Assembly: GCA_019059635.1 (NCBI GenBank)
Contig: JAGVRJ010000001.1
Span: 2,356,001-2,420,000, forward strand
DNA from: Proales similis
Taxonomy: Eukaryota > Rotifera > Eurotatoria > Ploima > Proalidae
DNA: 64,000 bases
Direction of reading: 5' to 3'
The notes beneath the pieces are model-generated. The model had not been told where the DNA came from. It was given only the letters and a program-made list of their open reading frames with translations, and made no database searches. The position numbers and the translations under genes were made by a program. How positions within the stretch are numbered: position 1 is the stretch's first letter; each line of letters opens with the position of its first letter. Below, in pieces: positions 18,657-21,600 of this stretch.

Positions 18657-21600
18657 CTGAAATTATTTTCGCTTGTTTAGTTTTGTCTCTTAATTGCCAA
18701 TTTCAAACCATGCGTCGTCACTCAGTCACGCAACACTTTGAAAGAAGGCAGCTTATTCATAAACGACCAAGCCAAGTCAAGACATGTCAATGCAACAGTT
18801 CGGCTCAAAATTGCGGTTTATTAGTCAAGTTAGCGCAAATAAAGAGATAGAGAGAGAGAGCGAGAAAAAGAAAAGACGGACTAAGAAGAGTGAGACGCTC
18901 GCGAGCAAGCGACGCTCGAGCAGACAAAGATTGGAATAAGGGCGGCAAGTGGATCGGTTGATCAATCTGAGCTTATGCTGAAGAATTTTCAACCTTGTTG
19001 ATTGTTGATTAATTGAGACGCGCTGATCATGTACTCGATGAGACGAGAAAAATGACCAAGAAACGGAATGAATTAGAAGAGTTAAAATGGAGAAATATTG
19101 ATCTCGGCTGTTTGATTAAAGAGCGATGGTATGGATTGCAAGAGCCATGATCGATGAGTTTGATGAGGTTGCAGAGTTTGATGGCGTGAGAATCAGAATT
19201 AATGAATAAAATAAAGAGCAAAAGCAAATATGCGCATGCGCTAAATTAGGACTTGCTTTAGTATAATCCGTACTTTTTCAATTCAAACAACGGGCAAAAG
19301 TAAATAAGTGAGAAGTACATGCTCCACATGAGCGTGCAGCTTAAATAGCCAAACATGTCGTTTTTCTCTTCTGTACCTTCGATGTAGTTGCGCGATATGA
19401 ATTTGAGAGACTCGTCGAGGATCACAACAGGCAGTGAAATCTTGAGCACTGCCAACCACTCTTCCCACGACAACGGACAGATTTGAAACACGTTCTGCAA
19501 TTTAGAAGAAGGATTAGATTAAGTCGTTTGCGGATGAAATGCCGAATTTGGCTCAACGTACGTTGAAGAACGGAGTATAGAGGATCATAAAGTGCAGCGA
19601 CATTGACAGCACAATTGAGCCAATGAGCCACATGTTGGTCCACGGTGGCATCTTCAACAGCGACTGGTTCTCAGACAAGCTGAAATTAGAGGGCGGCCGA
19701 TTGGGCCATTTTTAAGTTCACAGTCAAATGCGTGAAGCGTGTGTGTTAACTCACCTGTTCATGGCGTTAAGCATCTCAATGGTGACCAACACCGACAACG
19801 CCATGGTCATTGGGTGCGGATCGTCAAACACATCGCAGTCGATGTCGGCCCATTCTTCGCCACCGCCCGCGCATTGGAAGTGATGAGTCTATGGAATTTG
19901 CGTTAAATTTAAATTTGTGGATCTATCGGAATTCAGGCTAAATTCAGGCATTTCGGAGCATTCTCTAGTCAAGCGCAATCGATTTCTAACTCTTAGCATG
20001 CAAATTCAAACCGAGCAGCTCAAACGATCGGCATTCTCATCGTCTCAAAAATCAGCACCCTAGTCTAAACTGTTTGCTTTACCAGTTGGTGCCAGGTGAG
20101 AAGAGGTCCGTCATGATAAGAGACGTACCACCAGGCAGAAGCGCCAACCGTGGCTGCTCCGACATAGCCTTTGTTTTGTTTAAATTTTAATTAAATTATC
20201 AAACGTACCAAGTGCCAGTAGGTAATCTTGGGGCCATTAGATGCCTCCATAAACCACCAAACTGAAGCGCCGACCGTGCTGGCGCCCACGTAGGCTAAGC
20301 GCGAGGAAGGAGAGAAAGAGTTGAGAGAGTCCAATCGAAAAAAAGTCTGATCGGGTGTAAAGAAGTCGGGTCGAAGAGAGAGAGGGCATCGATCCAAGTA
20401 AATGGAAATGTGACTACGGTGACTTACCTCCAATGGCCATGTATCTGAAGAAGAGCCAGGGAGTGATGAGTGACTCGTTGGCCGATCGCGGCGCTTTCTC
20501 CATGATATCCAAATCGGGCGGGTTAAAGCCAAGAGCAGTGGCTGGCAAGCCGTCAGTGACCAAGTTGACCCACAACAGCTGAACGGGGATGAGCGACTCG
20601 GGCAGACCAAGGGCGGCAGTGAGGAAGATGCAGACCACCTCGCCGATGTTGGACGAGATCAAGTATCTAATGAACTGCTTCATGTTGTTGTAAATTGCAC
20701 GACCTTCCTCAACAGCGGCGACAATTGACGAGAAGTTATCGTCGGCCAAGACCATCTCGGAGGCGGATTTGGCAACAGCGGTACCGCTGCCCATCGCAAT
20801 ACCGATCTCGGACTTTTTAAGCGCCGGAGCATCGTTCACACCATCACCAGTCATGGCAGTGATCTCACCGTGCGACTGCAAGTACTCGACAATCTTTGAC
20901 TTGTGCGACGGCTCGACACGTGCGAACATCATGGCCTTTCGGCAAGCATCGCTCTGCTGCGAAGGGCTGAGATCGTCGAACTCACGGCCGCTGAACGCTC
21001 GGCCAGTGGTGTCCTCGTCCTCGGTAAAGATGCCAATGCGTCGGCAGATGGCCTCGGCGGTGTTCTTGTTGTCTCCGGTGATCATGATCACACGAATACC
21101 GGCCTGTCTGCATCGAGCAATAGCATCCTTAACCTCCTTTCGGGGCGGGTCCAACATGCCGACCACACCAACGAATGTAATGTCCGACTCGTATTCGATC
21201 ATTTTGCGCGAGTCCTCAAGATCCATGGACTCTTTCTTGGGCGGGTTGTCGATCACGCCCAGGGTCAGGCAGCGGAGGGTGTCGCGGCCAGTGCCATACT
21301 GGTGCACGAGCTCAAGTACTTTGGCTCGGAGAGAGTCGTCAAATGGAACCTTGCTATTGCCAACGCGAATGTGCGTGCATCGCTCAATGACAGCCTCAGC
21401 AGCGCCTTTAACAAACATTCGGCTGCCTCCTTTAATGGCCGGATCGGAGGGCGTGGCGAAGACGCTCATCGACTTGCGGTTTCGAGTGAACTCCAAAGTC
21501 AGCTCTTTCTTGTACTTTTGTCTGATCACCTTGTTGCAGCACATGGCCTTGTCCTGAGGTGAGAGGCCAGATTTGTTGGTGCCGTAGACGTTCATCTTCT

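Follow-up and report, generated by a model that had tools for sequence, protein, structure and literature searches.

The gene for the calcium pump SERCA that lies in the window, by which we mean the whole stretch of 64,000 nucleotides analyzed from Proales similis, a tiny marine monogonont rotifer, raises the question of whether a single ion pump gene can be spliced into two different pumps. Two homologous exons of 86 nt, called A and B here, are found 40 nt apart and in the same phase between an exon that ends in MAIG and one that begins with THHFQC, and an earlier note on this DNA had proposed that they are used in a mutually exclusive way. The coordinates, lengths, and phases in that description were correct (Table 1). 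Sequence comparisons make it very likely that one SERCA exon was duplicated in tandem long ago to give A and B, and that the pair was kept by selection and is spliced mutually exclusively. The gene thus probably provides P. similis with two pumps, which are distinguished by the end of TM7 and the adjacent loop.

Table 1. Features of the SERCA locus and other features of the window (window positions; residue numbers are those of rabbit SERCA1a).
Feature	Position	Strand	Length	Remarks
SERCA gene	19258..23024	-		P. similis SERCA
SERCA exon 1	22907..23024	-	118 nt	start codon at 23024
Intron before exon 2	22846..22906	-	61 nt	
SERCA exon 2	20428..22845	-	2418 nt	ends in MAIG plus one base of the split codon
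Intron from exon 2 to A	20295..20427	-	133 nt	
Intron from exon 2 to B, if B is used	20169..20427	-	259 nt	
Alternative exon A	20209..20294	-	86 nt	residues 842-870; similar exon in relatives P0071 and P0072
Spacer between A and B	20169..20208	-	40 nt	GT...AG; no AG before its end
Alternative exon B	20083..20168	-	86 nt	B-type in 22 of 26 relatives
Intron from B to exon 4	19889..20082	-	194 nt	
Intron from A to exon 4, if A is used	19889..20208	-	320 nt	
SERCA exon 4	19755..19888	-	134 nt	begins with THHFQC; remainder of luminal loop L7-8 and TM8
SERCA exon 5	19562..19679	-	118 nt	
SERCA exon 6	19258..19494	-	237 nt	long terminal tail including a hydrophobic stretch
Candidate short C-terminal exon	18628..18656	-		APLVKKKLD, then stop; weak, one among many acceptors listed; by analogy with P0027/P0028
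tRNA genes (five)	26262..26334, 40401..40473, 40641..40713, 40968..41040, 43220..43292	-		

The gene was identified as SERCA by its DKTGT site and because its product resembles SERCA pumps of known structure over almost the whole length. When the exon 2 product was compared with solved SERCA1 and SERCA2 chains using phmmer, the E value was 0. Apparently, P. similis has one SERCA gene. With the exon pair as a DNA query against the genome, the sole match was the SERCA locus (scoring was restricted to the best candidates), and when the 164 residues that precede the tail of the pump were used as a protein query, the best candidates scored included five matches, all of them in this gene. The hydrophobic stretch in the tail encoded by exon 6 may be an 11th membrane helix.

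A and B have equal phases: each is preceded by one base, G, of a split codon, and each ends on a whole codon. Their GT-AG sites are intact and neither contains an internal stop. Messenger RNA with A only or B only encodes 1036 residues. Inclusion of both exons shifts the frame, as had been stated in the earlier note, and leads to a TGA that spans the junction of B and exon 4, after 902 residues and upstream of two more exon junctions, while skipping of both leads to a stop after 866 residues. The pair has two of the features expected of mutually exclusive exons: adjoining homologous exons of the same length and phase, of which one keeps the frame and both or none break it.

The homology of the two exons is clear at the nucleotide level, with 48 of 87 aligned bases identical (the G of the split codon counted); when the bases of B were shuffled 20000 times, the highest count was 39 matches, and 48 never occurred. 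At the protein level 15 of 29 residues are identical, and nine of those 15 are encoded by different codons. There were 19 differences at third codon positions, versus 10 at first and 10 at second positions. The estimated dN was 0.49 and the estimated dS 3.08, which is saturated, giving a dN/dS of about 0.16. By these estimates the silent sites are saturated and the protein is constrained. The saturation indicates that the duplication was not recent.

These results bear on the possibility that P. similis uses B alone and that A is a dead duplicate. B-type exons are indeed the commoner form in relatives, but the frame and splice sites of A were found to be intact. In addition, the protein has remained constrained despite saturated silent sites, and 26 of the 29 residues of exon A are shared with P0071, a protein from a relative. 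A dead exon A is very unlikely.

The earlier note had also claimed that the spacer is shorter than nearly all introns here and that this would block splicing of A to B. Intron sizes were sampled from 20 stretches of the same genome (12 myosin and 8 kinesin) in which introns were placed by homology. Exon pairs more than 12 family positions apart were skipped, and 62 junctions were kept. An intron was considered resolved if its splice score, calculated from hand-set consensus scores, was above 1, which was the case for 37 of the 62 junctions; the others, with no legal pair of sites or a weak one, were counted only among the 62 estimates. The 37 resolved introns were 43-374 nt in length, with 28 of them within 55-65 nt, and the 43-nt intron is poorly placed. 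The 62 junction estimates were 46-669 nt, the longest of which spans a second candidate exon. At 40 nt, the spacer is shorter than all 37 resolved introns and all 62 estimates, which bears out the claim about its size, and the remaining SERCA introns are 61-194 nt. P. similis thus has a spacer below the normal intron size, the feature on which a steric mechanism would depend, although not every mutually exclusive pair needs it. In vertebrates, the threshold for the distance from donor to branch point is about 50 nt according to one report (PMC7969005), a value that is probably not valid unchanged here, given how many introns have a total length of only about 58 nt.

The donors of A and B scored 1.3 and 1.5, on the weak side compared with 0.1-6.1 (median 2.6) for the 37 introns, which were picked for good scores. 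The B acceptor has no pyrimidine tract, and some of the 37 sampled acceptors are likewise purine-rich before the AG. Competing RNA pairings are an alternative mechanism of exclusivity, though one that not all pairs need; the predicted RNA folding of the region was unremarkable, with a z-score of -0.78 and equally good folds in 20 of 100 shuffles.

A second candidate pair was seen in a myosin heavy chain gene of the same genome (C7:167900-171400), where two homologous candidate exons, 168649-168759 and 169121-169216, correspond approximately to positions 116-152 of Myosin_head and are both followed by GTAAG. By analogy with insect Mhc, this looks like another mutually exclusive pair.

To what extent the two exon types are present in related species was evaluated with 73 proteins from three protein searches, which yielded 70 proteins, then two new ones among eight, and then one new one among two; the single new protein of the third search was fungal. 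Among the proteins with an organism name, the nearest were from rotifers. Twenty-six predicted proteins formed a clade with the window, 25 of them according to the first phylogenetic tree and P0025, which was outside that tree, according to its sequence. This clade is called monogonont because the named bdelloids and Seison fall outside it. The A-type and B-type exons noted in P. similis were both present: 22 of the 26 proteins were B-type and four were A-type (P0001, P0009, P0071, and P0072). The relatives appear to derive from transcripts, because contigs of 3367-4312 bases are given for P0071, P0072, and P0009 (none is given for P0001). P. similis exon A was identical to that of P0071 at 26 of 29 residues, P0072 at 24, P0001 at 21, and P0009 at 18, and the A exons of P. 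similis, P0071, and P0072 shared 24-26 of 29 residues among themselves. Ten chosen B-types shared 19-28 of 29 residues among themselves and 13-17 with P. similis A. The P0001 exon was identical to one B-type at 20 of 29 residues. Bdelloid gene models in the sample were B-type or had the exon missing. The lack of A in bdelloids means little, because A was the query from which the searches started and because a gene model may carry one form. One bdelloid gene model, P0058 from Didymodactylos carnosus, was without the 29-residue exon, perhaps because a variable exon was annotated wrongly.

Two trees were inferred after the exon columns had been removed, the first with 19 of 74 rows dropped as near-duplicate, truncated, or redundant, and the second with 29 of the 73 proteins plus the window. 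On both trees the A-type rows were scattered singly among the B rows (four changes). A single A-type clade was rejected on the second tree (p-AU 3.2e-5), in a test that was chosen after the first tree and that involves long branches. Outside of the exon, P0001, P0009, and P0071 had branches of 0.23-0.26, versus a median of 0.067. The three may therefore represent distinct copies of the gene in their species, and for P0001 a mosaic assembly is possible. In all three the A-type exon reads in frame into the next segment. A structure model of P0071 had low confidence (mean pLDDT 53.8, from 33 sequences) and was set aside. P0001 and P0009, though distant in the tree, are identical to each other between TM6 and the beginning of TM7, where they are unlike their nearest relatives; this may equally reflect convergence, another variable segment, gene copies, or assembly mixing.

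More direct information came from P0072, a predicted protein of 874 residues in an eight-member cluster, from a contig of 4051 bases. It reads exon A followed by ATSVLVP and a stop (DYWHL-ATSVLVP-stop at its end). This tail can be explained as exon B read out of frame directly after A, and the fit holds for only one of the 70 proteins tested, P0015. The test covered 70 of 72 proteins (P0058 and P0070, in which the exon is missing, were left out) and assumes that the split codon begins with G, as it does in P. similis. P0015 is the sister of P0072 (branch support 100/100), and 801 of 838 residues outside the exon are identical, which makes the two close relatives, though not necessarily one species. 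From the fit of the tail to its sister, A and B are very probably neighbors in one gene of this relative, in which A is apparently joined to B, ending in an early stop. As P0001, P0009, and P0071 are doubtful, direct indication that A and B are adjacent comes only from P0072, which represents a joined A and B rather than an A-only product. The proposal of mutually exclusive use is strengthened by the A-types in relatives and by this protein, in which A is directly followed by a B-like tail. The steric block, on the other hand, is plausible in P. similis and not a necessary rule, since A is apparently joined to B in P0072, where it is the frameshift that prevents a pump with both exons. Joined reads are allowed by criteria for human mutually exclusive exons if the join shifts the frame (PMC5740500).

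The scattered A-types together with P0072 indicate that the exon pair is old. This history would be wrong if the A-types of the relatives were separate SERCA gene copies and the P. similis pair a local duplication, a reading that concerns history and is compatible with mutually exclusive use in P. similis. The long branches of P0001, P0009, and P0071 and the stretch shared by P0001 and P0009 would fit such copies. It is nevertheless an unlikely explanation, because a single A-type clade was rejected, the tail that follows exon A in P0072 fits its own B exon, A and B of P. similis are both in the sole SERCA locus that was found, and the silent sites of A and B are saturated.

A different possibility is that exon A is mainly regulatory, such that joining A to B gives a truncated, decay-prone mRNA and lowers pump output, with A-only pumps being rare or absent. 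P0072, with its cluster of eight, resembles such a product, and in P. similis the stop that results from A plus B precedes two further exon junctions. By the usual rule, a stop upstream of exon junctions tends to promote decay of the mRNA. However, a mere poison exon would have no need of the 24-26 of 29 residues that exon A has in common across three species; P0071, P0001, and P0009 read in frame beyond A; and the P. similis spacer is unusually short for an intron. A mainly regulatory role for exon A is thus quite improbable, and an old pair of alternative coding exons is the preferred reading.

Position 813 of the exon 2 query aligned with position 840 of rabbit SERCA1a, which places the split codon at 842 and the exon at 842-870. 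Because TM7 comprises residues 831-855 according to a review (PMC7313052), the exon encodes the half of TM7 on the luminal side together with the first part of loop L7-8. Three of the 14 residue differences between A and B are at 842-855, in TM7, and 11 are at 856-870, in the luminal end and early L7-8. The luminal tail of SERCA2b is described as coming near the M7-M8 loop, a contact of M11 with M7 that was once proposed is absent from a crystal structure, and models of SERCA2b have disagreed on what this region does for calcium affinity and luminal control (PMC10058886).

The residues that distinguish A from B were compared with those of 17 non-rotifer sequences (human SERCA2, one fungal sequence, and 15 that grouped with arthropods in the first tree). 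The TM7 half favored B and the luminal half favored A, in some cases by one residue. The view that B is canonical and A diverged therefore holds for the TM7 half and fails for the luminal half, where the non-rotifer sequences side with A. Seison sided with B in both halves, and P0002, which was placed with uncertainty, was closer to B in the TM7 half and to A in the luminal half. These comparisons suggest that the luminal residues of A are the older ones and that the luminal half of B is a rotifer novelty.

Variation may also exist at the end of the protein. A GT donor at 19377 within exon 6 could reach the candidate short K-rich exon, and P0027 and P0028, which are otherwise nearly identical, have a short tail and a TM11-like tail that diverge from the same point. 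By analogy, an alternative C-terminus is possible in P. similis. A more speculative scenario, doubtful though conceivable, is that the pair came from the common rotifer (Syndermata) ancestor, with the luminal residues of A as in other animals and those of B a rotifer invention, and that together with an alternative TM11 tail one gene would give four pumps through two switches that meet at the luminal face, where the SERCA2b tail acts.

In the mechanism we propose, each mRNA would carry one of the two exons, A or B, flanked by exons 2 and 4, and the two resulting full-length pumps would be distinguished by 14 residues. Exclusivity would have two layers: a spacer shorter than the measured introns, which would disfavor splicing of A to B, and the reading frame, since an mRNA with A spliced to B would be out of frame and stop early. 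We infer that P. similis produces both forms, and that the swap may tune calcium affinity or luminal control. With apparently one SERCA gene, the animal might rely on this swap for what vertebrates achieve through multiple SERCA genes and C-terminal tails.

SERCA is among the best studied ion pumps, and a natural swap at the TM7 end and L7-8 would provide a pair of otherwise identical pumps, which could reveal the role of the luminal end of TM7 and of L7-8 in calcium affinity and luminal control. The pair also illustrates a way in which SERCA may be diversified when the gene is apparently present only once, and an old exon pair allows spacing and frameshift to be compared as guards of exclusivity. 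In open-licence literature searched by titles and the starts of abstracts for SERCA mutually exclusive exons, exon duplication, and rotifer or invertebrate splice variants, no such case was present among the matches listed, although an earlier report is possible; in the available text of two human surveys, neither ATP2A nor SERCA was matched as a term. Judged by these matches, the internal swap at TM7 and L7-8 would affect a site at which SERCA was not known to vary by splicing.

In its layout the P. similis pair is like known mutually exclusive tandem exons, such as those of human PKM, exons 4a and 4b of OGDH, and insect Mhc, which are described as adjoining homologous exons of equal length and phase, with single inclusion in frame, double inclusion that often shifts the frame, and in some cases a short distance from donor to branch point (PMC5740500, PMC7969005, PMC2764345, PMC2257972). 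Unlike those pairs, it would swap the end of a membrane helix and a luminal loop of an ion pump. Mutually exclusive exons are also present in another calcium transporter, the Na/Ca exchanger NCX1 (PMC4589332, PMC5740500), though it is of a different protein family. Human SERCA splice forms vary only in the C-terminal extension according to a review of the human genes (PMC7313052), in agreement with what the earlier note had said of vertebrates, whereas P. similis would swap an internal exon. A parallel is found in SERCA2a and SERCA2b, in which splicing also yields SERCA pumps that differ on the membrane and luminal side, with the SERCA2b tail near the same M7-M8 loop (PMC10058886).
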